Origin: Planctomycetaceae bacterium
Lineage (GTDB): Bacteria; Planctomycetota; Planctomycetia; Planctomycetales; Planctomycetaceae
Assembly (NCBI GenBank): GCA_024742875.1
Contig: JANSXP010000002.1
Location: 124,001-188,000, forward strand
Reading direction: 5' to 3'
Length of the DNA: 64,000 nt
Both the position numbers and the translations under genes were made by a program. Under the pieces are notes generated by a model. The model was not told the origin of the DNA and did not search any database. It saw only the letters and a list, made by a program, of their open reading frames with translations. Positions 42,193-58,236 of this stretch are shown in pieces. Within the stretch, counting starts at the first letter, position 1. The number at the start of each line of letters is the position of its first letter.

Positions 42193-44046
42193 CTACGGCT
42201 GAGAGGCGGTCTGGACCTCACTGGCCGTTTCACCAGTGCTCACGTCACCAGTCGTCACATCGCCCGCGGCCGCATCGTCAGCCTCGGGCTGCCCCTCCGC
42301 GGGCTCAGTTTTTGTAATGTTGTCTGACGGCGTCTGAGGAGCTTCAGGATCCCCCTCTGCGGGGTCTTCGGGCTGTTCGGCCGGTTGCTTAACGGCCGGC
42401 TCAATCAGCTGGCGATCTCTCAGCGTGTCTCCCAGTCGCAGCTTCCACACGCCCGCCTCATCCTCGAGCAGCAAAAATCGTTTGGAGATTTCTGTCAGGC
42501 GGGCATTGATGTCGGCCACAACCAGTCGATCGCCCACTTTCAGCTCAGGACGCTTGTTTTCGATCTGATTCCAGAACCACGCCACCGGCACGCCATCCAG
42601 TTCCACGGCGGCCGTAAAACGTGTTACAGCGGCTGTGTCATCCTGCACGTTGAGAACCACTGTTTTGCTGGCTGATTTGGACGGCGAGCCACTGTCGGCC
42701 ACCTTGACGGTAAATTCGTATTCACCGGGAGCGAAGGTCTTGGGTGGCTGCCAGCTCAGAGCATCCCCGTCAATCGACAGGCCCTCCGGCGCACCATCCA
42801 GCGAGAAGGACAGGTCGTCCAGATCGCCATCGTCCTCAGCCTTCAGATCGAGTGAAAAGTCGCGTCCGAGAATGACGGCCGCCGATCGGGCCACGGTCAG
42901 CACAGGGGCGGCGTTGGCCAGCTGCACGGTCACCGTCATCGTTTTTTCCATATTCAGCTCGTCATTGTTCTGCTGAGTCAGCAGAAACGTCAGCTCATGC
43001 TTTTCCGCCTGGGCATCCTCGGGAACAACCCATTCAAATTCTCCCGTTTCGGCATCATACGTCATGCCGTCAATTGCCCCGTCCATCGCAATGGTGGCCT
43101 TGCCGACATCCACATTGATGTCCCGCGGCTTGATCGACATCTTCAGCGTCTTGCCCGGCTCAACGGTCTTATTGGACACGGTAAACGTGGGCCGATAGAC
43201 CTTTTCCGGTTTCGGCTTGGTGAACAGCGACTCAGCCAGAAAGGCGGAGTAGCGATCAAAATTCACGCCGTCCTGCAAAGGCGACACGCCAAACAGCTGC
43301 ACGTACTCATTGCCTTCGTGGGCGGCCGCTTTGGTGCCCTCCACGCCACGTTCAATTTCCCACGTGTTGCCGGAACCGCCCACCACTTCAATCATTTCCC
43401 GACCCACCTGGACCTTGAAGGGGAACTTGTCCGGAAAGTCGGCCGACTCACCCACGACGACCGTCGTGGCTTCCGCGTCCAGTTTTTCGGGCAGGTGGGT
43501 GCGGGCAAACACATCACCACGCGACGGACTGCCCGCCACACTCAGTCCCTGCAGAGTCATGGTGACTTCCATGCGAGGCGTGCCCTGGGATCCGGTACTC
43601 TCCACGTCCAGTGCGCTGACACGCTGCTTCAACTCCGCCTGCTCAAACAGAAACAGAAACCGACTCAGGTCGTCGAGGCTGGCTTCTCCCTCCACCTCCA
43701 CACTGACAACGTTGTATTTGCCCGATCGCGACTCGGTGCGACCTGGCGTCACTTTCAGCTGTGCAAAGCGGCACTGCTCTGCCAGGTTGGTCACCCAGGT
43801 CAGATAGATCCGCTGGGCATCATTGACCGAGGGCGGCAGGCTGATCTGTTTGGTGTCCTCAATCAACTGCTCGGCCAGGTCGACCTGCCAGTCTTTCTCC
43901 TCGGCCCGCTCCAGACTGCGGCTGGCCGAGTTCAGCGAGGTCTTCGCCTTCTCAATGGGGCCCATGTACATCGGCTTGCCGATCATGAATCCCAGCACAC
44001 CGGCCAGCACACCACCAAGTACTTTTGTTCGTTTTGATTCGTCCAT
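42193..44046 (-). CDS. PilO/GspM-like protein with Ig-like repeats and possible GspC/PilP-like end
   Basis: 617 residues. A transmembrane helix (about 8-25) and a helical stretch (30-65) lead to a ferredoxin-like PilO/GspM-type region (about 75-180, RIYLTWVTNLAEQCRFAQLK; SLDDLSRFLFLFEQ). A beta-rich segment follows, then two Ig/cadherin-like repeats (about 300-475; AAPVLTVARSAAVILGRDFS, YEFTVKVADSG). After these, LKVGDRLVVADINARLTEIS and GVWKLRLGDTL resemble a GspC/PilP homology region. The C-terminus is acidic. It closes the secretion operon, 85 bases after the PilM/N gene. It would be the inner-membrane platform protein in the periplasm. Confidence 0.75.
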   Translation of the reverse strand: MDESKRTKVLGGVLAGVLGFMIGKPMYMGPIEKAKTSLNSASRSLERAEEKDWQVDLAEQLIEDTKQISLPPSVNDAQRIYLTWVTNLAEQCRFAQLKVTPGRTESRSGKYNVVSVEVEGEASLDDLSRFLFLFEQAELKQRVSALDVESTGSQGTPRMEVTMTLQGLSVAGSPSRGDVFARTHLPEKLDAEATTVVVGESADFPDKFPFKVQVGREMIEVVGGSGNTWEIERGVEGTKAAAHEGNEYVQLFGVSPLQDGVNFDRYSAFLAESLFTKPKPEKVYRPTFTVSNKTVEPGKTLKMSIKPRDINVDVGKATIAMDGAIDGMTYDAETGEFEWVVPEDAQAEKHELTFLLTQQNNDELNMEKTMTVTVQLANAAPVLTVARSAAVILGRDFSLDLKAEDDGDLDDLSFSLDGAPEGLSIDGDALSWQPPKTFAPGEYEFTVKVADSGSPSKSASKTVVLNVQDDTAAVTRFTAAVELDGVPVAWFWNQIENKRPELKVGDRLVVADINARLTEISKRFLLLEDEAGVWKLRLGDTLRDRQLIEPAVKQPAEQPEDPAEGDPEAPQTPSDNITKTEPAEGQPEADDAAAGDVTTGDVSTGETASEVQTASQP

Positions 44047-44131: not shown

Positions 44132-45595
44132 TCAGGCTTTCGCCGCACTCGATTCTTCGGGAACGGGAATGCGAACATCCAGTTCCACTTCCATGCTGTA
44201 ATCAGGATCACGCAGGCTTTGCTGCATTTCATTAGGCGTGACGTCAAAGCCGGCTTCCCGCAGACGACGCTCCAGATCTTCGATATCACGGCGTGATTTG
44301 GCCAGACCGTTGGCAGAGATCGAACCGACGTGCGTTTTGGAATCCAGATGCTGGAACTTCACATCCTTGATAAACACGCGTTCTGTGCTGCCCATGATCT
44401 CGCGGATTTTCACCATCTGATCCAGCCAGCCGATGTCGCGATTGGACCAGGCTTTCAAATCTTCAGCCAGTTCCAGCTGGTTTTTGGCCGCCTTATAGCG
44501 GTCTCCCATGTCGGCCACGTCCTGCTTGATCTGCTTCGTCTGTTTCTCATAGCCCGACACCGCACTGTCGCGATACTTCCAGCCGCCAATGACCAGCAGG
44601 GCCAGACCACCGCCGATCAGAATCTTCTTCAACCGGCCGTAGTCTTTCTTCTCCGGCGCTTTGCGGGGGTTGATCAGGTCCACGTTTTGAACAGACGCAG
44701 CACGCCCGGCCACTAAAGCGCCGGAAATCGCCAGCAGGTCCGACGCCGAGACACCCGCAAAACTGCCGGAGACGAGTGTGTCGTTGGGATCCACGCGAAC
44801 AACGGTGGCGTCGTTGAGTCGTTTGGTGATCGAATCGGGAACCACGGCCGTCACTTCAGGACTGCCAATCAGCGTGAGGCGGCTGACGGTATACGCGCCC
44901 ATGTCTTCGGCGGCCGCCATCCGGGCGCGGGACACTTCCGCCCGTACGGCCTGCTCGGCCGCTTCGATCGACGTCCAGGATGCTCCGCTGTGCGAAAACG
45001 CGACGGAGTTGCCGTTCATAAAGATCATCTCGATGGAGTCTGACCCCAGGGCGATGATGGCTTCCACGTTGCTGCCGGCATCAGATGACACCAGTCCCGC
45101 GTTGACCGCCGAGGCGGCAATGCCAAACGAACTGACGCGAACACTGCTGAGCGTCAGTCGACAGGTCGACAGCGCTTCCATCACGGCCGTCACATGCTGC
45201 TGCGGGAGCGTCACCAGAATGACTTCACGTGTCTCGGCCCCGGGAGCAGCGGGCAGCGGAACAAAGTCCAGACAAACCGACTCGACGGGCACGGTCAGCC
45301 GCGTGGCCGCCTGCATGCGGACCAGTTCCGGAATTTCGTCGTCACCCAGATTCGGGAGCGTGATGCGATGAAAGGTCACCAGATCACGGGGAAAGACAAC
45401 AACCGCCTCTTCGGCCTTCATACCGGCCGATGAGAGGGCTTCCGTCAGTTTCTCTCCCAGTTCCCGCGCGTTGAGCGTGCCGCCTTCCCGATCCACGGTC
45501 ACCGCCGACTCGATGCGTACGGACTTGCCGCTGGCTGTTCCGGTGGCCGCGATGATCTGGTCGCGATCCCATTCGATGACGATTGGTTGAGCCAT
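44132..45595 (-). CDS. gspL: PilM-PilN / GspL-like assembly platform protein
   Basis: 487 residues. The cytoplasmic actin-like domain spans about 1-310: IVIEWDRDQIIAA opening, FHRITLPNLGDDEIPELVRM, and IIALGSDSIEMIFMNG. A transmembrane helix (KILIGGGLALLVIGGWK, about 325-345) is followed by a periplasmic coiled coil and a small PilN/GspL-type domain (MGSTERVFIKDVKFQHLDS). PilM and PilN are separate proteins in type IV pili but fused in GspL, so this is a GspL-like protein. It is 210 bases after gspK, the largest gap in the operon. Confidence 0.82.
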   Translation of the reverse strand: MAQPIVIEWDRDQIIAATGTASGKSVRIESAVTVDREGGTLNARELGEKLTEALSSAGMKAEEAVVVFPRDLVTFHRITLPNLGDDEIPELVRMQAATRLTVPVESVCLDFVPLPAAPGAETREVILVTLPQQHVTAVMEALSTCRLTLSSVRVSSFGIAASAVNAGLVSSDAGSNVEAIIALGSDSIEMIFMNGNSVAFSHSGASWTSIEAAEQAVRAEVSRARMAAAEDMGAYTVSRLTLIGSPEVTAVVPDSITKRLNDATVVRVDPNDTLVSGSFAGVSASDLLAISGALVAGRAASVQNVDLINPRKAPEKKDYGRLKKILIGGGLALLVIGGWKYRDSAVSGYEKQTKQIKQDVADMGDRYKAAKNQLELAEDLKAWSNRDIGWLDQMVKIREIMGSTERVFIKDVKFQHLDSKTHVGSISANGLAKSRRDIEDLERRLREAGFDVTPNEMQQSLRDPDYSMEVELDVRIPVPEESSAAKA

Positions 45596-45805: not shown

Positions 45806-47485
45806 TCAGCGGTCATAGATGGGTTTCAACTCGTCGGGATGGAAGGCGCGTCCCAGCGACGTCAGATCCCGGATGAACATCACCCGCGGTGGATACTCGG
45901 TCGCATCCACCATGGCTTCCAGCCGAGTCATCGGGCCACCGTTGCCAAAGTGCCCAATCACCTGAAACCGGTGCACATCGCCACCGGTCGTGATGTACGG
46001 TCCCAGTTCCCGCAACTGCTGCAGATCGATCAAACCTTCGGTGAACAGCCAGGCGGCCGTCTGGCGACGCACCATGATGCTGGCGGAACCGCCCTGCATG
46101 CCGACTTCCGGTCGCGAGGCGATAATGTCGTCCACGATGGTGCCCGGCAGTTCGCTGGGGATGGCATTGGAGACGGACGTGAGCACTTCGGCCCGCGCCT
46201 CATTGATATTCACACGGCCTTCCACGTAGGAGTCATCATTGATCGTCAGATACTTTTCCAGCTCCGGAAAATCGTTGATCACATTGTCTTCTGACCAGGG
46301 ACTCACAAACGACTTGCTGCCCGAGGAGTAGGTTTCGACCGGATTGGTCTCACCGCCAATCAGCTCATACAGCGACGTGAACTGAAACGTGGGTACCACC
46401 GTCAGGTTGATGTCGTTGCGGGAGATCTTTTCTTCAATTCCCGATTCCGGCAGTTCGAAGGCCTGCTGGGCGTATTCGGTGCCGCCAATGCGATAGGCCA
46501 CAATGAAGCTGGCCGCGTCTTCGCCATACAAAGCTTCGATGTCATCGTACAAAGTGGTCATCTCACCGCTGTTGAGATTGATCTTGGGATCGCCGTCGGG
46601 GTTGGTGTTACGCTCTCGACTGGTCGCGGTGAGATATTCCTTCCAGCCAAGATCCAGCACGCCATCCGCATTGTCCGGCGGATAAGAGGCGTCCCCATCA
46701 TTCTCATTGGCATCGAGCCGACCATTGTTGTTGGTATCTTCCCCGTAGAAATATTCCGGCAGGACGCCCTGAACTTTCAGCAGTTCGTTGATGTCCTCCA
46801 TCGGCCCGTTTTTGCATTCATAAGGCACCGTCAGCGACTGGTAGTCGCTCGTCTCCGCGCCGCCGGGTCGGCGGTCGTCGTCAGAGTCCAGCCAGTCCAG
46901 CGTGGCATTGAGGATGTCTTCGGTCATGTTGGGGATGTTTTCCACGGCCAGATTGGCCAGCCCCAGTGACTCCTCGCCGAGGGCCACTCGCGCCTCATCC
47001 AGCTCGTAGAGTGTCAGCAGCTGATTCACGTTGAATTTCGCACTCTCGTTGGCAATACCAAACCGATGCCCGCCCGTGGTCAGATTGGTTTCATCAAAGG
47101 CGATCACGGTGAACATCACCTGGCCGCGTTCGTTGGGCGAATCGAACAGTATCTGTCGGCTGAAACTGTCCGGGTTGTCATAAAAGTCGATGGTGTCGTC
47201 GGTGTCGCTCTCCATGATCCGCGTGGCCACCAGTTCCACGCCGGATTCCGCCGCCGTACGGGCAATCACATCGTCACCACCCATCACCACAGCGCGGTGT
47301 TCGACCAGCATCGTGCCCGAGTAGTTGTAGGCCGCAAAGATCAGCAGGACCACAGTCACCAGCACAACCATCAGGATAAAACCGTCGCGATCGACCGGCT
47401 GCGAACAGTGGGGGCGGCGTACCGCGGCCTGCTGCCGTTTCCGCTGCTGTCTCCTGTGGCGACGCTGCTGTTTGTTTCGCATCAC
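45806..47485 (-). CDS. gspK: Type II secretion minor pseudopilin GspK
   Basis: 559 residues, larger than the usual 320-340. The N-terminus is basic, then a hydrophobic pseudopilin-like helix (GFILMVVLVTVVLLIFAAYN) follows. As in other GspK proteins there is no strict Glu5 consensus. The large globular domain has Asp/Asn-rich loops (DTNNNGRLDANENDGD, a calcium-binding-like pattern) and T2SSK helix-hairpin-helix-like INLNSGEMTTLYDDIEALYG. GspK caps the pseudopilus. It overlaps gspJ by 4 bases. Confidence 0.85.
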   Translation of the reverse strand: MMRNKQQRRHRRQQRKRQQAAVRRPHCSQPVDRDGFILMVVLVTVVLLIFAAYNYSGTMLVEHRAVVMGGDDVIARTAAESGVELVATRIMESDTDDTIDFYDNPDSFSRQILFDSPNERGQVMFTVIAFDETNLTTGGHRFGIANESAKFNVNQLLTLYELDEARVALGEESLGLANLAVENIPNMTEDILNATLDWLDSDDDRRPGGAETSDYQSLTVPYECKNGPMEDINELLKVQGVLPEYFYGEDTNNNGRLDANENDGDASYPPDNADGVLDLGWKEYLTATSRERNTNPDGDPKINLNSGEMTTLYDDIEALYGEDAASFIVAYRIGGTEYAQQAFELPESGIEEKISRNDINLTVVPTFQFTSLYELIGGETNPVETYSSGSKSFVSPWSEDNVINDFPELEKYLTINDDSYVEGRVNINEARAEVLTSVSNAIPSELPGTIVDDIIASRPEVGMQGGSASIMVRRQTAAWLFTEGLIDLQQLRELGPYITTGGDVHRFQVIGHFGNGGPMTRLEAMVDATEYPPRVMFIRDLTSLGRAFHPDELKPIYDR

Positions 47486-48336
47486 AATTCCTCCCCCACA
47501 TAGGGCCGGGCCACCGGCACGGGAATCACGAGTCGGTGTTCGGTGTCGGGGATCCAGCCGGGGATGTCTTCCGGTTCCCGCGGATCGTTCGGATCGATGA
47601 TGGTGCGGAGCTTGAGAATTACTTCAATGGCCTGCGGCATGGCGTTGGATTCTGTGCTGTCCCACTCGGGCTGATACTCCAGGCCATCCCAGTACTGAAA
47701 CTGCATGTCGGCCACTTCCCGCGCGATCAGCTCAGACGCCGCTTCCTGCGTGGCCATATCACTGGCATTGATGGCCAGACTCAGCCCCGCCAGATCGCCC
47801 TGCATGCGGGCCAGACCCACGACGTTGTCCGTGGAGTCGGGGTCGGCAAACGTACTGCCGACGGCCCCCGCCAGATCGCCTGCACCGCTGTCGGCAAGAA
47901 AGTAGCGAATGATCATCGCATCACTGCTGCGATCATTCGGATCGGTCAGCAGTTGTCGGTCCACGTAAGCCGTGTCCCGCGTGGGACGGCTGATATACAG
48001 CACGAGGTCTTTGTCAGTGCCAAACAGTCCGTTGTCATACGAACTCATCTCTGTGCCGGCATCCTCGTCCTCAGTCTGGTTGTCCTCTTCGTCGGAGTCC
48101 AGTGTGTCCTGCTCCACGAATGTCACCGACTTGATATCACGGGCGATAAACCGCAGCAGCGAACGCGCGACCTGCACGCGCTCAATTTCGTCGTAGCTGT
48201 CCGCGGCCGTCGTCCAGTAGATGTTCATGGCCGAGTACATGGCGGCCATCAGCAGCGATGTCAGGCCGACGGCCAGCAGGACTTCGATAATCGTGAAGCC
48301 GCCGCGATGGCTGGTTTTGGCAAATCGTGAGGTCAT
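47482..48336 (-). CDS. gspJ: Type II secretion minor pseudopilin GspJ-like
   Basis: 284 residues. The prepilin peptidase site is HRGG-FTIIEVLLAVGLTSL: cleavage after Gly, with Glu5 present. A long hydrophobic helix follows, then a beta-rich domain with LLRFIARDIKSVTFVEQ, typical of GspJ. An acidic insertion (DSDEEDNQTEDEDAG) is unusual. Four-base overlaps with gspI and gspK indicate coupled translation, consistent with formation of the GspI-J-K tip complex. Confidence 0.85.
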   Translation of the reverse strand: MTSRFAKTSHRGGFTIIEVLLAVGLTSLLMAAMYSAMNIYWTTAADSYDEIERVQVARSLLRFIARDIKSVTFVEQDTLDSDEEDNQTEDEDAGTEMSSYDNGLFGTDKDLVLYISRPTRDTAYVDRQLLTDPNDRSSDAMIIRYFLADSGAGDLAGAVGSTFADPDSTDNVVGLARMQGDLAGLSLAINASDMATQEAASELIAREVADMQFQYWDGLEYQPEWDSTESNAMPQAIEVILKLRTIIDPNDPREPEDIPGWIPDTEHRLVIPVPVARPYVGEEL

Positions 48337-48761
48337 TCGGACGCCTCACTTTCCAGAGCGGCATCCAGAAACAGCTGCGGGTCCCGCATGTAGCGAGTCA
48401 GCTGAAAATAGGCGTTGGCTTCATCGCCCGCCATGTGCTCCACCAGCACCACAATCTTCAGCAGACTGGTGCCGTCCGCATCTTCGATGGTCGTGGTCAG
48501 CTGCCACTCATCGTTGTCTTCAAATCGCTCCGAGACGGCCGTCATCTCGCGAATCCCCGCGACGTACTCGCCCATTACCGATTCGCAGCGCACCACGGCT
48601 TCGGCTTCCAGACGGGCACTCAACCGAGACTCATGCCCGATGTTGATGATGCCCAGCACAGCCGTCAGCGAGCCCAGAAAAATGGCAGTCGCCACCAGCA
48701 CTTCAATCAGCGTGAGCCCGCGTCGGCCGAGGACCGGATGTTTGCAACGGCGCTGCATCAC
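48333..48761 (-). CDS. gspI: Type II secretion minor pseudopilin GspI-like
   Basis: 142 residues. The prepilin motif is RRG-LTLIEVLVATAIFLGSL with Glu5. The rest is a small helical and beta domain with SRLSARLEAEAVVRCESVMG, the usual GspI length and layout. It overlaps gspH and gspJ by 4 bases each. Confidence 0.82.
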   Translation of the reverse strand: MMQRRCKHPVLGRRGLTLIEVLVATAIFLGSLTAVLGIINIGHESRLSARLEAEAVVRCESVMGEYVAGIREMTAVSERFEDNDEWQLTTTIEDADGTSLLKIVVLVEHMAGDEANAYFQLTRYMRDPQLFLDAALESEASE

Positions 48762-49360
48762 AGGTCGTCCTCCGGATAAACCTGTGAGACCCGCGTGGTC
48801 CCTGTGAGGCCCCGCAGCGTGACGTCCGACGTGAGTCCCGCCGCGTTGGAAACCCGAAACGTGAAGTCGTCCGCGGTGCCATCAAAGCGAAACATCACGG
48901 GTGTCGACCACCGTAGTCGGGCCAGTTCGGCACCCCCCAGATCTCCAAATCGCGCGGCTTCCAGAATCTCGGACTGTTCCTCTTCGCCTTTGGCCCGGCG
49001 AATGGTGATGCCCTCTTCCAGCGGCATCAAGGCATAGTACTGCTGATCGGTGCGGGTGGAGGTCTGCTCGGTGGATTCCTGAGTGGTCACATCGTTGGGC
49101 AGCACGACCAGATGACGACCGCCCACTTCGTACCGCACTTCGTAATCAATTCCCGTTTCAATACTGAACCGCCGTGCTTCGGCCAGTGCGTCACGCAGTT
49201 GGTCGGCCTCGCCAAAAACCGCGTTCTCCCCCACCATCGACATCAGGTTGGGCACCGCCAGCGCAGCAATGGTCACCACAATGCTGAGAACCAAAATCAG
49301 TTCCAGCAAAGAGAACCCCGGATCAGGGTGGCGGTCATGCTGTGCGACGGTCTTTTGCAT
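48758..49360 (-). CDS. gspH: Type II secretion minor pseudopilin GspH-like
   Basis: 200 residues. The prepilin motif is DPG-FSLLELILVLSIVVTIA with Glu5. The C-terminal domain has FGEADQLRDALAEARRFSIE followed by TGIDYEVRYEVGGRH, the typical GspH pattern. It is separated from gspG by 98 bases containing an inverted repeat, and overlaps gspI by 4 bases. Confidence 0.82.
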   Translation of the reverse strand: MQKTVAQHDRHPDPGFSLLELILVLSIVVTIAALAVPNLMSMVGENAVFGEADQLRDALAEARRFSIETGIDYEVRYEVGGRHLVVLPNDVTTQESTEQTSTRTDQQYYALMPLEEGITIRRAKGEEEQSEILEAARFGDLGGAELARLRWSTPVMFRFDGTADDFTFRVSNAAGLTSDVTLRGLTGTTRVSQVYPEDDL

Positions 49361-49458: not shown

Positions 49459-49920
49459 TTACTGTGCGTCGCGGCGGACGTTGCTGATGTCGTCAGAGTC
49501 GAGGGCACCGCCATCGTCTTCCGTGTTGGCACCAAAAGACCAGATTTTTGGCTTCATGTCGCCGTCGGAATACGAGTACTGGAACTCGTTGCCCCAGGGA
49601 TCCATTGGCACTTCTTCCATCAGCGGCTTTTGCTCTTTGCCCATGGAATCTTCCCAGGGCTCAGCCAGCTGGCTGATCATTTCTGAGCCGGTGCCCGCCT
49701 GATAGACGCCGTTGTTCTTCAGAGCTTTTCGCTTAAACGCGTCTTCGATGTTCTTGATGGTGGCCCGCGCGATGTCGTTGTTGGCGTCCGTTCGACTGCT
49801 CAGCAGGTTCGGAGCAACCATCGCTGCGATGGCCACGATGATTCCCAGGACGATCAGCAGTTCCAGCAGAGTGAAACCGGACCGAACGACGGGCCGTCGG
49901 TTTGTTCGTGTTGCTTTCAT
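49459..49920 (-). CDS. gspG: Major pseudopilin GspG
   Basis: 153 residues. The prepilin motif is RSG-FTLLELLIVLGIIVAIA with Glu5. The C-terminal region PMDPWGNEFQYSYSDGDMKP is the typical GspG calcium-site region with the Asp pair. ATIKNIEDAFKRKALKNNGV is the helix following the first domain. It is the main subunit of the periplasmic pseudopilus. Confidence 0.92.
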   Translation of the reverse strand: MKATRTNRRPVVRSGFTLLELLIVLGIIVAIAAMVAPNLLSSRTDANNDIARATIKNIEDAFKRKALKNNGVYQAGTGSEMISQLAEPWEDSMGKEQKPLMEEVPMDPWGNEFQYSYSDGDMKPKIWSFGANTEDDGGALDSDDISNVRRDAQ

Positions 49921-50085: not shown

Positions 50086-51297
50086 TTACGACGATGTGGA
50101 CATATTCAGAATCGGCAGCAGCAGCGCGGCAATCACAAACGTAACGATGCAGGCCATCACCAGCAGCATGATGGGCTCCAGCAGTCGCACGGCCACGTCA
50201 ATTTTGCGGGCCGTCGTTTTTTCCAGACTGTCGGCAATATTGACCAGGACATTTTCCAGATTGTTGGCCTCTTCGGCGATGGAGATCATCTCCACAATCT
50301 CTTTGGAAAACTGGCCACTGGCTCGCAGTGGCACCGCCAGCGATTTACCGCCCGAGACATTGTCAGCCGCATTGCCAATCGCTTCGCTGAGCACCACATT
50401 GCCACTGGCATCTTTGGCGATCTGCAGCGACTGCAGAATGGGCACGCCGTTATTCAGCAGCGTGCCCAGCATGCGGCAAAAGCGGGCCACGGCGAGGTTC
50501 CGCACAATCGGGCCAATGCCTGGCGTCTTCAGCTTGATGCGGTCCAGCTGATCCTGAGCCTCTTTGTTATCTGACACATACACGATGCCGCCGATCACGA
50601 CGGCACCAATGGCCGGGAAAATCACGTACCAGTTGGCCTGCAGAAAATCACTGAATGACATCAGCGCTGTCGTCGCCCAGGGCAGCTGCCCCTGTTCCCG
50701 CATGCGACTAAAGATGGAGGCAAACTCCGGCACAAACCAAACCAGCAGCACGCTGATAATAATGGTGCCCACACCCATCAGAAACAGGGGGTAGACCATG
50801 GCGCCGGTGACTTTGCCCTTCAGCTCTTCCTGGTGATCGTTGAAGGCCGCCACACGCGACAGCACGTCTTCCAGAAAGCCGCCTTCTTCCCCCGCTTTGA
50901 CCATACTCACGGTCAGGCTGTTGAACACGCGCGGGTGCTTGCGCATCGCGTCATTCAGACGCGTACCTTCGGCCACCTGCTCGTGGATGTCCTGAGTGAC
51001 AAACTTCAGCGTGGGATGGGTCGACTGGCCCTGCAGCAGTTGCAGAGATTTCAGCAGCGGCACACCCGAACGCAGCAGGTCGGCCAGCTGATTATAGAGC
51101 GTGGTCAGGTACTTGCCGGGAACACGTTTAGATCCGCTGACCTTTTGTTTTTTGGACGCCTCCGACAGCCCGATCTGCATCGGAAACAGGCCCTGGCTCT
51201 GCAGCGAAGACAGCGCATCTTTCTCGCTGCCGGCCGTCAGGATTCCGGCGACCTGCTTACCGCTGAGTTCTCGGGCCGTGTAAGCGAATTCTGGCAT
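50086..51297 (-). CDS. gspF: Type II secretion inner-membrane protein GspF
   Basis: 403 residues, the family length. Two GspF/PilC domains are seen: LYNQLADLLRSGVPLLKSLQ in the first, and FCRMLGTLLNNGVPILQSLQ in the second. Transmembrane helices lie near 170-190, 220-240 and at the C-terminus (IMLLVMACIVTFVIAALLLP). It anchors the ATPase to the membrane and helps move pseudopilins. Confidence 0.94.
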   Translation of the reverse strand: MPEFAYTARELSGKQVAGILTAGSEKDALSSLQSQGLFPMQIGLSEASKKQKVSGSKRVPGKYLTTLYNQLADLLRSGVPLLKSLQLLQGQSTHPTLKFVTQDIHEQVAEGTRLNDAMRKHPRVFNSLTVSMVKAGEEGGFLEDVLSRVAAFNDHQEELKGKVTGAMVYPLFLMGVGTIIISVLLVWFVPEFASIFSRMREQGQLPWATTALMSFSDFLQANWYVIFPAIGAVVIGGIVYVSDNKEAQDQLDRIKLKTPGIGPIVRNLAVARFCRMLGTLLNNGVPILQSLQIAKDASGNVVLSEAIGNAADNVSGGKSLAVPLRASGQFSKEIVEMISIAEEANNLENVLVNIADSLEKTTARKIDVAVRLLEPIMLLVMACIVTFVIAALLLPILNMSTSS

Positions 51298-51404: not shown

Positions 51405-53096
51405 CTATTCCTGTCCGATCAGGTCTCCACGTGTGATCCGACAAATTTCTTCCACGCTGGTCCCGCCCGCCATGACCTGCTCCCAGCCGCTTTGCCGCAG
51501 AGTTGTCATGCCGTGAGCCAGAGCGTGAGCACGGATCCGTGTCGCGCTCTCGTTTTCCGCACACATTTCCTGCAGTTTTTCGTCCGTGGTCAGCAGCTCA
51601 AACACGCCCGTTCGCCCTGAGTACCCCGTGTCGCCGCACTCGCGGCAGCCCACCGGCTCATAGACAAATTCGGTTTGATCTTTGGGGAAGTCGTGCGGCA
51701 GATCGGCCTGATCCACCGGCACCTTCTTCTTACAGTGACTGCACAGTCGACGCACCAGTCGCTGAGCCAGAATGCCTTCCACCGTGCTGGCCACCAGATA
51801 CGGCTCCACGCCCATATCCACAATTCGTGTGAACGCACTGGGCGCGTCGTTGGTGTGCAGCGTGCTGAACACCACGTGGCCGGTGAGTGAGGCCTGAATG
51901 GCGGCCTGAGCCGTTTCGCCGTCTCGAATTTCCCCGATCAGCACCACGTCCGGGTCGTGTCGCAGGATACTTCGCAGTCCGGCGGCAAACGTCAGTCCGA
52001 TGCGGCTGTGTACCTGAATCTGACTGATCCCATCCATCTGATATTCCACCGGATCTTCCACGGTGATGATCTTGGTGGACGGGCTTTTGATTTCATTAAG
52101 AGCACTGTAGAGCGTGGTCGACTTACCCGAGCCCGTGGGACCTGTCACCAGAATGATGCCGTGGGGCAGATCAATCAGCTCTTTGAACCGCCGCGAAATG
52201 GTGGGCGGCATGCCCACATTCTCCAAATCGAACGTCATTCTGGCTTTGTCCAGAAGACGCATTACGACACCTTCGCCGTGGGCCATGGGGATGATCGACA
52301 CACGCACGTCGACTTCCCGACCGGACACCCGCAGCTTGATACGCCCGTCCTGGGGCAGACGTTTTTCGGCGATGTTCAGGTGCGACATAATTTTCAGTCG
52401 CGTGACAATGGCCGAGTAGAAGTGGTTGATCTCCGCCGGCACCGGCTGCACCCGCAGCATACCATCGATGCGGTAACGGACCCGCAGGCTGTTCTCGAAC
52501 GGCTCAATGTGAATGTCACTGGTCTGCAGCTTGACCGCTTCGATGAGCAGCTCATTCACCAGCCGAATGACCGAGGGAGCCTGCGCACCTTCAGCCAGTT
52601 CACCGAAGTCTTCCTCAATTTCTTCAAGCAGCTCGATGCCTTCTTCGCTGCGCTGCCGCACCAGTTCGTTGATGGTGTCACCACCAACACCCAGCAGCTC
52701 ACGAATCCGCAGTTCCAGCTCATTGCTGCGCGTCAGCACCGGTTCCAGTCGCAGACCGCTGACCGTGCCCAGCTCATCGATTCCCTCCAGATTGAGCGGA
52801 TCATCGGTCGCCACCACCACGTGACCGTTCTGCCGGTACAGCGGCAGCAGTGAGTGACGATAGATGGCGGAGGTGGGGAACTGATTCAGCAGTTCGATGT
52901 CGACATCCACCTCTTTGAGGTCGATGTACTCCATGCCAAATTCCGTCGACAGCGTTTTCAGCACGGCGTCTTCAGTGATCATGCCCATCTTGATGAGGGT
53001 CTGATCAATGCGGCTGCCGTTTTGCTCACCGCGAGCAACATTCAGCTGCTCTGAGGTGATCAGGCCTTCGTCAACGAGAAGCTGTCCGAGTTCCAT
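51405..53096 (-). CDS. gspE: Type II secretion ATPase GspE
   Basis: 563 residues. The N-terminal GspII_E domain begins [20 protein letters not shown]. The Walker A motif GPTGSGKST is near 316-324, with Asp box and Walker B ([13 protein letters not shown]). A zinc site of four cysteines lies in CSHCKKK (near 450) and [11 protein letters not shown] (near 485), typical of GspE and PilB. It powers pseudopilus assembly. It starts 43 bases after gspD. Confidence 0.95.
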
Positions 53097-53139: not shown

Positions 53140-56100
53140 CTAGCGACGACCGCCACCGGCACCTCGGCCACCACCGAATCCACCACCACCAGCCCCGCGT
53201 CCGCCAGCAGCGCCTCCCGCACCTCGACCACCACCAAACGGACTGCCGCCCGTGGTGCCGCCGCGCTGTCCGCCAAAGCCACCGCCCTGACGAATACGAT
53301 CCTGAATGGCCTTCTGAAAGGCGTCCTGCGCCGCATTATTGGAAGAGCTGCCGCCGGAGGAATTGCTGCTGCTGCCCGTCGTGCTGCCCGTTGTGCGTGA
53401 GGAAGAAACAGAAACACGCGGCAGCAGATTGGTCAGTGACTGCTGAATCATGGACGCGTCAGAATGCTGCAGCTGAATCACACGAATGCCGGGATTGGCT
53501 TCCTGCGTGCGGTTGTCAATATCCTTGACCACACCTTCGACCGCTTCGAACAGCTGCTGGTTGCAGTTCACGTACAGGGTTCCGGTTTGCTCATCGGCTT
53601 CCACCAGCAATCGCACCTGAGAGGCCGGATCGTTGGACTTGCCACCGCCACCAAACATGGCCGCCAGGGGGTTTTGCTGGTTTTGACGACCGTTGTTGCC
53701 GCCCTGAGCTTCCGTGTAGGTCTTGAACAGTTCCTTCACACGCAATTCCACGTCACGAACGTCGGCATACATCACCTGAATGGCGTGTGGCTGCATGTCT
53801 TTGAGGGACTCGGGAATGTTGTCAGAGTCAATCACATCCAGAAACGCAAGAGCGTCTTTGATCATGGACTGTGGTCCGGTCATGAACAGCGAGTTGGTGC
53901 GAATGTCGGGAATGATCTTCAGTGACTGTGGCCCGCTGCTCAGCCCACTCAGGCCAGTGGCATCCATCAGTGAACTGCCCATGCTGCCGATCCCACTGGC
54001 CAGACTTCCCAGCATGCTGCCGCCGCTCGCGGCTGATGTGGTGGCCACCGAACTGCTGGGAAAAAACTGCGACAGCATGTCGGCTGCCTCAAGAGCGTCG
54101 GCGGACTTCAGATAGACGACCGTGTATTCCGGCTTGAACGGCATGGACTGGTGCAGCTCGTCCAGCAGGTCCTCCAGCCGATCCAGCATGGCTTCATCGG
54201 GGGACGACAGCAGCAGCTCGTCGCCGATGATAATCACATCCAGATTGTCCGGATTGATGCCCGTCTCATCGGTGGAGTTGGCGAGCTGCTGAAACGACTT
54301 CACAGAAATGAACTCTCCCTGCTGCGGCTTTGTCGTGGCCGCCAGGCCGCGTTCTTCACGCTGAATGCGGGCAATTGTTTCCCGCCATGGACGCCACTGG
54401 CTGTCGGGAATGGTGTCCGACTTTGACAGGTTGTCGCGAGGAGTGCTGGCTGGCTGATTGTCCTGCACGCCACCGGGCAGCTCCTCGGTGGTGCGGCGTT
54501 CCCGAATGGGACCGCTTTCGTTGGGAATCACGATGTTGATCTTCTGGGTTTCGTTGGCATCCCAGGCCTGCTTGAGAATACGCACAAAGTCGTCCGGGTT
54601 GCGGCCCTGCAAAGCGAATCGTCGTACGGTGCCGCCGTCGCCACGCTGGCGGACGCCCGAGCCGTCTTCTCCCATGTCGGCGAGGATGGCACGGATTTGT
54701 GTGATCTGCTCAATGCCACCGCGAACAATCAGCACGCGACGGTACAGGTCGGTTTCAATCGTGGGGGCGTCGTCGCCATCGTTATAAAACAGGCTTCGCA
54801 GTGTGGCGGCCGCTGTCAGCGGATCCATCTGTGCCAGAGGAATCACGGCCACGCTGCCACCGCTGCCACCGCCGTCCAGCTTGCGGATCAGCATGGCCAC
54901 TTCTTCGTGCTGTTTCTCACCGGCCATCACGTGGATGGTGCCCGCTCGGCCGTCTTCATTGACCACCTGCACGCCCGGCATGTTCATGGCCGTCAGCGTC
55001 TTGGCCACTTCATCCGCCTGAGCGCCCGTGACTTTGTAAACTTCCAGATAGGTGCCGCGGCTGCGGCGGGAGATGGCATTGCCGTAAGCGTCTTCGTCAA
55101 CATCCAGTGTCGTGAGGATACTGTTGACCAGTTCGTGCTGCTGTGCCGTGCCGGTCACCAGCAGACTGTTCAGTCGCAGGTCGGCGGCCACCTGAATTTG
55201 CGGACCGGATTGCGTGGGCTGACGGCTCTGCTGAGGCTGCGTCCGCGACTGCGAGCGTGCCTGCATTCGCTGCTGCATCTCCACGGCCGCACTCACATTG
55301 GTGGCTCCCTGCTGCATGCCGAACTGCGTCAGTACGGCTGTCTGAGCTTCTTCCGCATCCATATTCCGCAGCGGGTAAGACTTAAACAGCAGCGCGTTCT
55401 CTTTGTCCATCCCCATGGCCAGCGTCAGCAGACCGTGAATTTTTCGCAGGCTGCCGCCGGTATCGGTGATGATCAGAATTCGAGATTCGGTCAGGGCGAT
55501 GATGTTGCCGTGTGGCCCCACGAGTGGCTCCACTTCCTGAGCCGCACGACCGGTCTCCATGCCGGTGACAGGAATCTTCACGGTCACCAGCTGATGCTCG
55601 CCCACTGTGGGATCGCTGCCCAGCTCCAGCAGTTCTTCAATCGTGACTTCCGGCACCAGATACGGCGGGATGCCGTTGTCGATGTTCATCACAATCACAA
55701 AGCTGTCATTTTCAATGACCGCATAGCCTTTTCGCAGCAGAGCTCCGTTGAGGATATCCAGCGTGCGGCGAGCCGAGTACTCATTGGGATCGGTGTGTGT
55801 GAAGGTTCCCGGCGGGACCTGCGTCAGTTCCAGCGTCAGGCCGGCACCATCAGCATACATCTGCAGCACCTGCTCCCAGGGAGCACCACGGAAATTGAAG
55901 CTGAACTTCTCAACGCGTTTCGTTTCGCCCGTGGACTCACCACCAAAGCTGCTGATGACGGGGCCACGGGGTGCCTGCGGAGCCTGTGGAGAGGTGGCAT
56001 CCGGAGCTCCGCCATTCGACGGCGCCGCCGCCACTTCTTTGCGCTCGTAGTAGGCGGACTCTTTTTCGTAGCGAGAACGCTGGGCGTCAGACAGGGCTGA

Positions 56101-56664
56101 CAGCAGTTTTTCATTCCACTCGACGCGGAACTTCTCACGATCTTCTGCCGAGGAGTCATATCCCAGCTTGCGAGATGCGGATGCCCGCTCGCCATTGAGC
56201 TCGGAGATCTTTTCGGTCTGCTCTTCCGTCAGCCCGTACTCTTCCACCACCACGGGGTCAGAAAAGATGCGTGTGCCCGCGCTCTCAATGAAAATGCCGC
56301 GGAGCTTATTCTTCTGAACAGAGTCCAGCACCTTGACGGCGTTCTCTTTGAACGCCAGACGCTGCTTCGAAACAGCGGCCGTCATTTCGGCTCGAATTTT
56401 TGACTGCTCGTCCTTGTCTTCCGTGTCGGCAATCTTCTTCAGATAGGGCTCGAAGAATTCGCGGCCCGGCGAGGACTGCTTTTGCAGTTCTTCCAGTTTG
56501 GTTTTCTGAGTGCCTGACAGACCCAGTTCGTCACGCACTTCCTCGCGACGCAGCATGTCCGCCTCGGAGACCGAGCGATTTCGCTGACCGAACACCGGTG
56601 CTGTGACAAACAGACACACGGTGAACAGAAGAACACGAAACGTGAGTGTATTCTGGTTGGGCAT
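53140..56664 (-). CDS. gspD: GspD-like secretin-N repeat protein with Spy-like N-terminus and no visible secretin barrel
   Basis: 1174 residues. A signal peptide (1-27) precedes a helical region (about 40-200) with LSGTQKTKLEEL, LTEEQTEKISEL and LSDAQRSRYEKE, like the LTxxQ motifs of Spy/CpxP. An STN/N0-like domain follows (LTLELTQVPPGTFT). Several secretin-N repeats come next (ESRILIITDTGGSLRKIHGL; RVLIVRGGIEQITQIRAILA; PDIRTNSLFMTGPQSMIKDA). The C-terminus is a Ser-rich then Gly/Arg/Phe-rich tail. I find neither the conserved secretin barrel nor the VPxLxxIPxLGxLF motif. It is the first gene of the operon. Confidence 0.8.
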   Translation of the reverse strand: MPNQNTLTFRVLLFTVCLFVTAPVFGQRNRSVSEADMLRREEVRDELGLSGTQKTKLEELQKQSSPGREFFEPYLKKIADTEDKDEQSKIRAEMTAAVSKQRLAFKENAVKVLDSVQKNKLRGIFIESAGTRIFSDPVVVEEYGLTEEQTEKISELNGERASASRKLGYDSSAEDREKFRVEWNEKLLSALSDAQRSRYEKESAYYERKEVAAAPSNGGAPDATSPQAPQAPRGPVISSFGGESTGETKRVEKFSFNFRGAPWEQVLQMYADGAGLTLELTQVPPGTFTHTDPNEYSARRTLDILNGALLRKGYAVIENDSFVIVMNIDNGIPPYLVPEVTIEELLELGSDPTVGEHQLVTVKIPVTGMETGRAAQEVEPLVGPHGNIIALTESRILIITDTGGSLRKIHGLLTLAMGMDKENALLFKSYPLRNMDAEEAQTAVLTQFGMQQGATNVSAAVEMQQRMQARSQSRTQPQQSRQPTQSGPQIQVAADLRLNSLLVTGTAQQHELVNSILTTLDVDEDAYGNAISRRSRGTYLEVYKVTGAQADEVAKTLTAMNMPGVQVVNEDGRAGTIHVMAGEKQHEEVAMLIRKLDGGGSGGSVAVIPLAQMDPLTAAATLRSLFYNDGDDAPTIETDLYRRVLIVRGGIEQITQIRAILADMGEDGSGVRQRGDGGTVRRFALQGRNPDDFVRILKQAWDANETQKINIVIPNESGPIRERRTTEELPGGVQDNQPASTPRDNLSKSDTIPDSQWRPWRETIARIQREERGLAATTKPQQGEFISVKSFQQLANSTDETGINPDNLDVIIIGDELLLSSPDEAMLDRLEDLLDELHQSMPFKPEYTVVYLKSADALEAADMLSQFFPSSSVATTSAASGGSMLGSLASGIGSMGSSLMDATGLSGLSSGPQSLKIIPDIRTNSLFMTGPQSMIKDALAFLDVIDSDNIPESLKDMQPHAIQVMYADVRDVELRVKELFKTYTEAQGGNNGRQNQQNPLAAMFGGGGKSNDPASQVRLLVEADEQTGTLYVNCNQQLFEAVEGVVKDIDNRTQEANPGIRVIQLQHSDASMIQQSLTNLLPRVSVSSSRTTGSTTGSSSNSSGGSSSNNAAQDAFQKAIQDRIRQGGGFGGQRGGTTGGSPFGGGRGAGGAAGGRGAGGGGFGGGRGAGGGRR

Positions 56665-57090
56665 TGAAAGGATGCCTTCAGGTAGGGCAGGCTTGGAGGA
56701 ATCGGTAGGCCGGGAAGACGGTATTCCAGTTGCCAGAACACCGCGAGGAGCCGAAAAGAGTCTCTACATTTCCCAGATTCGTCTCGGAAACCAAGTATTC
56801 TTCGGCAAGGTTAGGGTGATGCAAGGGAATACTGCAGGGTGCGTTGGAGTTGCCGATTGTGACAAATGACCGTTCGCCCGGGACAGGTCGATAGACGATT
56901 ATTTCTGTTGGTTCGCTTTGACCAGCATTTTCCTTTTGGGAATTCAATTCAAATTTGCAAAGATGACGAACCGTACTACTCACGTTAGGCTGTGCGCTCT
57001 TTCCGTTTCACTTCCCGCCTGAATTTCACTGCGTGTTACGCATCGTTACACGTTGTGCCACCCCACCTGCTCCTGCCAAAGGCTGAGTCC
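56665..57090. other. Divergent control region of the secretion operon and the EF-hand gene
   Basis: 426 bases, partly AT-richer than its surroundings (AATTCAATTCAAATTT near 56943). It should hold the promoters of both gspD and the EF-hand gene. I see TTGACC near 56917 but no convincing paired -10, so I do not assign promoter boxes. No gene is supported. Confidence 0.5.
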
Positions 57091-58236
57091 ATGAAGTCAC
57101 TTGCTTCTGCTGTTGTATTGGTCGCACTGGTTCTGGCAACCACTCCGGATGTAATGGCTCAGCGGGGCGGCGGTCGGCCCGGTGGAGGCGAACGTGGAGG
57201 CTTTGGTGGCGGACGGCAGGGCGGCGGCGAACGCCCTGGTGGCGGCGGTCCCGGTGGCGGACGCGGAGGATTCGGCGGCGGTGATCGTGGCAGCTTCGGC
57301 GGTGGCCGCCCCAGTTTCGGGGGCGGTTCCGGCGGCCCGGGTGGCGGGTCAGGCGGACGTGGAGGCTTCGGCGGAGGCCGGCCCACATTCGACACCAACG
57401 GCGACGGCCAGATCGACAAAAGCGAAATCGCCGCCATGCCTGAAGGATTCCGACAGGCAATGGAATCACGCGGCATCAAAATTGAGCCCGGCTCTGTTGA
57501 CCAGTTTCGTGACAGCATGCGGAAACAGTTCGAACAGCGAGCGCGGGAAGAAGGCTGGTCGTGGGGAGGTCGCCGCGAGGAAGAACAGAGCAATGGTGAC
57601 CGCAAAGAGTCAGCCAATCGCGGGCGTTATCAGCCGGCCGCTCCGTTTCGCCCACGTGAGCGCGAACGAGTGACGGTCGACCTGCCCCCCAAATACAGCG
57701 AACTGGATCTGGACTTCGATGGACAGGTCGGACTGTATGAGTGGATCACAGCCAAACGGGAATCACTGGAAGAGTTCGATGAAATTGACGGCAATGCGGA
57801 CGGCGTGCTGACTCCCAAAGAGCTCAAGTTCTTTGACGAAATCGAAGCCGCCTCCGAAGCCAAAGTCACGTCATTCAAACGTGACCGCGTCATGATCATC
57901 GACGGCAAGGGCACCTTCAATGGCAAGTCCGGCAACAAAAAGACCACCAAAAGCAACATGTCGGCCGAAGAGCGGGAACAGACCGTCCAGAAAGGCAAAA
58001 ACTACTTCGGCCAGATGGACAAGAACAAGAACGGAAAGATCGACCGTGAAGAATGGGAAGCCAGTCGCCGCATTCGTCCATGGTTTGAAAACTCGGGCAT
58101 CAAACTCACGGACATGTCCGAAGACGATTTCTCCAACAACTTCCTCAAAGCTGTCGAACTGATGAAGGAAAATCAGGGCAAGTCGAAAGACGGCAAAGAA
58201 GAGCGTCGCGACGAAAAGCGCGAGTGGCGCCGCTAA
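57091..58236 (+). CDS. Secreted EF-hand protein with Gly/Arg-rich region
   Basis: 381 residues from the ATG at 57091, where a signal peptide starts (KSLASAVVLVALVLATTPDVMAQ). Residues about 26-100 are low complexity, with RGG, FGGG and GPGGG units. Four EF-hand loops follow: DTNGDGQIDKSE (about 101), DLDFDGQVGLYE (about 206), DGNADGVLTPKE (about 233) and DKNKNGKIDREE (about 310). The middle part is basic and charged. It is probably a calcium-binding exported protein. It diverges from the secretion operon and shares its Gly-rich style with the GspD-like tail. Confidence 0.85.
   Translation: MKSLASAVVLVALVLATTPDVMAQRGGGRPGGGERGGFGGGRQGGGERPGGGGPGGGRGGFGGGDRGSFGGGRPSFGGGSGGPGGGSGGRGGFGGGRPTFDTNGDGQIDKSEIAAMPEGFRQAMESRGIKIEPGSVDQFRDSMRKQFEQRAREEGWSWGGRREEEQSNGDRKESANRGRYQPAAPFRPRERERVTVDLPPKYSELDLDFDGQVGLYEWITAKRESLEEFDEIDGNADGVLTPKELKFFDEIEAASEAKVTSFKRDRVMIIDGKGTFNGKSGNKKTTKSNMSAEEREQTVQKGKNYFGQMDKNKNGKIDREEWEASRRIRPWFENSGIKLTDMSEDDFSNNFLKAVELMKENQGKSKDGKEERRDEKREWRR

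Follow-up and report, generated by a model that had tools for sequence, protein, structure and literature searches.

The window, a 64,000-nucleotide stretch of contig JANSXP010000002.1 from a Planctomycetaceae bacterium, carries an operon resembling those of type II secretion systems (T2SS), and the gene in the gspD position encodes a protein rich in secretin N domains that ends without a secretin pore. Does this machine lack an outer-membrane channel and, if it has one, what part does the pore-less protein play in it? The first-pass annotation had recorded the many secretin-N-type repeats and a Ser/Gly-rich tail in place of the pore, and had proposed either that no canonical outer-membrane channel exists or that the ring is made of N domains.

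The gene (53140..56664, minus strand) has an ATG start and encodes 1174 aa; we refer to its product as the N protein, the putative ring half of a split GspD. Profile searches and structure prediction bore out both sequence observations. Pfam Secretin_N (PF03958) matched with E=3.1e-38; six stretches fell within E<=10, of which three were within E<=0.01. The secretin core (PF00263) did not match even at E<=10. The NCBIfam GspD profile TIGR02517 scored 136 bits, below its equivalog cut-off of 351, and its best stretch covered profile positions 160-291 of 600. The AlphaFold2 monomer model (57-sequence alignment, mean pLDDT 73, pTM 0.36) contained no barrel. The top Foldseek matches were periplasmic domains of GspD, PulD and XcpQ, including XcpQ N0-N2 and GspD N-domain structures. 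Together, Pfam, the model and Foldseek place Secretin_N domains and an N0-like periplasmic domain of the secretin family in this protein.

All parts of the N protein are given here on the minus strand. A putative signal peptide, read from the sequence, occupies approximately residues 1-26 (56587..56664) and contains a hydrophobic helix at residues 6-20 in the model. It is followed by a predicted all-helical domain (residues 34-204; 56053..56565), which has no Pfam match and only by eye resembles Spy/LTXXQ-type repeats. The best-conserved part is an N0-like domain (residues 254-330; 55675..55905), delimited from the model and alignments. Then come seven Secretin_N (N1-type) domains (residues 359-1056; 53497..55590), supported by Pfam, the model and Foldseek, with a predicted beta-alpha-beta-beta-alpha fold and with disordered insertions in some of them. 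In the model, an eighth N1-type domain, of which only the first half is present (residues 1057-1085; 53410..53496), leads into the tail (residues 1086-1174; 53143..53409), which is Ser-rich, then Gly/Arg-rich, and predicted to be disordered; it matches the inter-module linker of fused relatives (see below). The minus-strand orientation, the N-terminal helical domain and the tail as a conserved feature are additions to the initial description. The proposed ring of N domains is likely.

Behind the N gene, also on the minus strand, lie genes for a GspE-like ATPase (T2SSE, MshEN; 51405..53096), a GspF-like platform protein (50086..51297) and a GspG-like major pseudopilin (49459..49920). They are followed by genes for GspH-like (48758..49360), GspI-like (48333..48761), GspJ-like (47482..48336) and GspK-like (45806..47485) pseudopilins, a GspL/PilM-like protein (44132..45595) and a GspM-like protein (42193..44046). 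GspE, GspF, GspG and the minor pseudopilins that mark a T2SS are therefore all present in the operon; its E, F, G and K proteins score below the strict equivalog cut-offs, and its GspL resembles PilM. The GspM-like protein was assigned mainly by position (weak GspM match, E=0.024). It has 617 aa and Ig-like (He_PIG) domains, and therefore other periplasmic parts of the machine look enlarged too. Its gene is the final T2SS gene of the operon in the window, with no gspD or lipoprotein gene after it.

In four relatives (G028, G020, G030 and G009) the operon reads N-E-F-G-H-I-J-K-L-M-D and continues with a lipoprotein gene, the labels reflecting gene size, gene order and resemblance to the genes of the window; D stands for a large, separate GspD. 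N and, approximately 14-23 kb downstream of it, a large D share one strand in 23 sampled genomes (G009, G014, G016, G020, G028, G029, G030, G048, G056, G058, G059, G063, G078, G082, G087, G095, G099, G112, G120, G131, G135, G137 and G139). In Thalassoglobus neptunius (L134) and at L117 the operon is divided otherwise, with N and gspE on one strand and gspF onward on the opposite strand. On its other side, the N gene adjoins a divergent gene for an EF-hand protein with a Gly/Arg-rich stretch (56992..58236, plus strand). This neighbor is conserved: a similar divergent EF-hand ORF was found next to the N gene in 35 of 58 relatives, and EF hands occurred in 35 of 87 adjacent divergent ORFs versus 3 of 507 other ORFs. 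The protein may be a calcium-binding partner or a substrate of the machine.

A hidden or truncated pore, within the N ORF or directly 3' of it, was ruled out. Besides the negative PF00263 result, gspE starts 43 bp past the stop codon of the N gene, which makes a pore 3' of the gene impossible. Furthermore, no secretin-core match was present in the N ORF at any of 80 loci, the best 80 of 127 relatives found in GTDB genomes by an alignment-based search; a search of the same contigs with the single N protein sequence had returned no relatives. The relatives come from planctomycete genomes, the closest records being named Fuerstiella, and among the same best 80 of 127 the gene 3' of N on the same strand is usually gspE. 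The terminal Arg of the N protein is shared by all 21 aligned relatives, and 53 of the 67 complete relatives from the database also end in Arg. Stops or frameshifts were seen in isolated cases only, such as one TAG in G002. Differences from the N gene of a congener amount to 0.30, 0.20 and 0.57 at codon positions 1, 2 and 3, a sign of purifying selection.

A separate pore was found in the same genome, which has nine PF00263 matches above the family cut-off. The best of them is a GspD of 1316 aa, encoded on contig C137 (L009:6331-10281); it combines six Secretin_N stretches with a single secretin domain (PF00263, E=3e-42) and, at 368.8 bits, passes the TIGR02517 cut-off of 351.35. It aligned over nearly its full length with GspDs of other genera (39-46% identity, 789-924 bits), and four of these full-length matches close an operon headed by an N orthologue. 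Its match to the GspD that belongs to a second T2SS of the same genus reached only about 555 bits. In the tree, it groups with the GspDs that close N-headed operons, with a support of 100/99; the lower forks are weaker, and the fork is marked as open. The lipoprotein gene adjoining it is homologous to the one 3' of gspD in the relatives' operons, and its product may be the pilotin of this GspD. In the window's genus, D and its lipoprotein gene lie away from the operon (L009, L066), so the secretin of the operon's own clade is present but unlinked. The C137 GspD was assigned to the N protein by orthology, and that both belong to the same machine is well supported. A 765-aa protein encoded on contig C131, close to a different GspE-like gene, was also considered as the partner and set aside, since its alignment with the C137 GspD is confined to the secretin core.

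In 19 genomes of three other families (f3, f4 and f8), the N and D modules are joined in a single protein of 1892-3269 aa. All 19 have the N part first and the secretin core near the C terminus. In G052, for example, the fused protein has 2137 aa; a single alignment of the N profile (438 bits) extends over residues 157-984, and two pieces of the D profile account for residues 1111-2101. In 15 of 15 fused f3 proteins, the 40-residue stretch with the highest Gly/Arg content of the whole chain falls after the N part and before the D part. The junction in G042 (...GGGGRGGRQALADP...) and the tail of the window's N protein share one type of sequence, and many split N proteins terminate in ...GRGGR. 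The tail is therefore most simply the linker at which the chain divides. These 15 proteins are related and therefore do not represent 15 independent events. In the two fused proteins of f4 there is no Gly/Arg-rich junction (one that was read is Ser/Arg-rich), and in the two of f8 the module borders are uncertain. The split-form GspD keeps its own N0 domain, whereas the fused proteins lack it.

The distribution of the N module was analyzed with a 501-aa piece against 119 genomes of the class. Matches were obtained in 78 of the 119, and some of these matches are paralogues or canonical secretins whose N domains are similar. Most genomes of the window's family encode the module as a separate protein of approximately 1150-1360 aa; separate forms also occur in f5, f9, f11 and f14. 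In f2, no listed genome matched the piece in this class-wide search.

We propose that a very long type II secretion channel is probably split into two chains here, the N protein being one of them. This is supported by the pore-less N protein, by the presence of the operon-clade GspD and the operon lipoprotein in the genome, by the linkage of N and D in relatives, by the colinear fusion in three other families with its Gly/Arg-rich junction in f3, by the fold matches to T2SS secretin periplasmic domains, and by the lack of a GspC match in 20 relatives. In secretins, the pore sits in the outer membrane and the N-terminal domains face the inner membrane (PMC5745081, PMC8134430). Since the fused chains begin with N and end with D, the N protein should form the rings proximal to the inner membrane. 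The N0-like and seven N1-like domains would build a periplasmic ring stack at that end, and the C137 GspD would sit on top with its own rings and the outer-membrane pore. The half domain and the Gly/Arg tail would act as a flexible join, which in the sister families continues into the pore protein. The extra rings would reach across the wide planctomycete periplasm; an enlarged periplasm is described for this group (PMC5394234). Tandem stacking of N protein rings under GspD, its order and its role in a wide periplasm are inferred. Several points speak against the proposal: the structure model is a monomer with a pTM of 0.36, the partner gene is unlinked in this genome and was assigned by orthology, the two fused f4 proteins have no Gly/Arg-rich linker, and the f8 borders are uncertain. 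The split GspD also keeps an N0 that the fused chains lack, so a simple end-to-end stack of the two chains does not necessarily follow.

The N protein could instead serve as a connector that replaces GspC, the main rival to a split channel and a possibility of some weight, though an unlikely one. No GspC profile match (PF11356) was found in 20 relatives' genomes, where a divergent GspC could escape the profile; the split GspD retains N0, the usual GspC/GspB-binding domain (PMC9239104), and the additional helical domain of the N protein, as modeled, could be a docking part. But no membrane segment other than the signal helix is predicted, the domains are ring-forming N domains, and in 19 genomes the N module is itself the N-terminal half of the secretin chain. 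The same fusion, seen in three families, weighs against the idea that the N protein builds a second, independent periplasmic ring or tube, for instance a pseudopilus sheath, that is encoded in the same operon and does not touch GspD. Further pore-less Secretin_N proteins outside T2SS operons in some genomes, such as the one on contig C153 here, speak for such a structure, which we nevertheless hold to be rather improbable.

That the N-domain ring is the entire channel of a machine without an outer-membrane pore, as the first-pass annotation had put forward, would fit the lack of a pore in the N gene and elsewhere in the window's operon. Since a true GspD of the operon's clade is encoded in the genome, is operon-linked in relatives and is fused to N in others, this reading falls, and we give it hardly any credence. 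Least plausible of all, to the point of being nearly negligible, is decay: the N protein would be a degenerate GspD, the truncated remnant that stayed behind when the real gene moved. The protein does stop inside a half domain and continue as low-complexity sequence, but the half domain and the Gly/Arg stretch also occur inside intact fused proteins. Moreover, the ORF is intact and pore-less at the 80 loci (best 80 of 127), with invariant residues; its differences are in excess at third codon positions; and operons that still carry GspD have the N gene too.

Compared with GspD, the T2SS secretin (TIGR02517; PulD, XcpQ, EpsD), the N protein shares the N0 and repeated N1-type domains, the best fold matches and the first position in a T2SS-like operon. 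It differs in having no pore, a score far under the curated cut-off, an N-terminal helical domain, a Gly/Arg tail and a number of N domains that exceeds the N0-N3 set of described GspDs. The mitochondrial T2SS, compared from papers only, also has Secretin_N-only proteins (GspDN1-3) apart from a pore-bearing GspD (PMC8134430, PMC10128026), and a yeast two-hybrid test there showed an interaction between N-domain proteins and the separate pore protein (PMC8134430). Those proteins, however, are short and eukaryotic, and their pore protein has no N domains, whereas the bacterial N protein is one long chain and N0 and N domains are retained in its pore protein. Extra rings have a precedent in PilQ of Thermus thermophilus, in which an unusually high number of stacked rings, six, is said to span a wide periplasm (PMC5745081); unlike the N protein, PilQ is a single polypeptide with its own pore and belongs to a type IV pilus rather than a T2SS-like machine. 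GspC and GspB, inner-membrane partners that bind N0 (PMC9239104), offer a possible functional parallel as links between secretin N0 and the inner membrane, but the N protein has no Pfam match to them and is itself built of N0/N1 domains.

According to a 2023 review, the bacterial T2SS pore is an oligomer of a single polypeptide, unlike the mitochondrial one (PMC10128026), and our literature search, whose reach excluded most subscription journals and all preprints, found no description of a bacterial split secretin. A ring chain and a pore chain that are separate in some bacteria and fused in sister families form a natural system for studying how ring number and channel length are controlled and how two chains register in one channel. 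There is also a consequence for annotation: the first gene of such an operon invites the name GspD, although the real pore may lie far off on the chromosome. For planctomycetes, with their unusually wide periplasm, the split provides named genes for a long envelope-spanning channel. Crateriform structures are described as outer-membrane pits from which 12-nm fibers emerge and which bind the outer to the inner membrane like press studs (PMC5394234). It is a speculative and rather doubtful idea that the split or fused giant secretin is their molecular body, the ring half being the pin to the inner membrane.

Other unusual proteins were observed in this genome and in its genus. In the genome of the window, a 1308-aa protein encoded directly upstream of a PilT-like gene (contig C33, L021 3522-7448) had no Pfam match at E<=0.01, and PF00263 scored at chance level only. 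G002 and G004, of the same genus, have a second T2SS-like operon with its own linked GspD (L063, L064, L067, L068). The first gene of this operon encodes a pore-less Secretin_N protein, of 2141 aa in one congener and 2202 aa in the other, without a Gly/Arg tail; 11 Secretin_N stretches were counted in the one of the pair that was scanned. The C153 protein mentioned above (L010 6754-9255) is a second pore-less Secretin_N protein of the window's own genome; it has 833 aa and four such stretches, and lies outside the T2SS operons seen. Directly after it, a protein with EF hands and a P-domain is encoded (L010 9297-11009), and the genes a few kilobases upstream of this pair look exosortase-like by eye.
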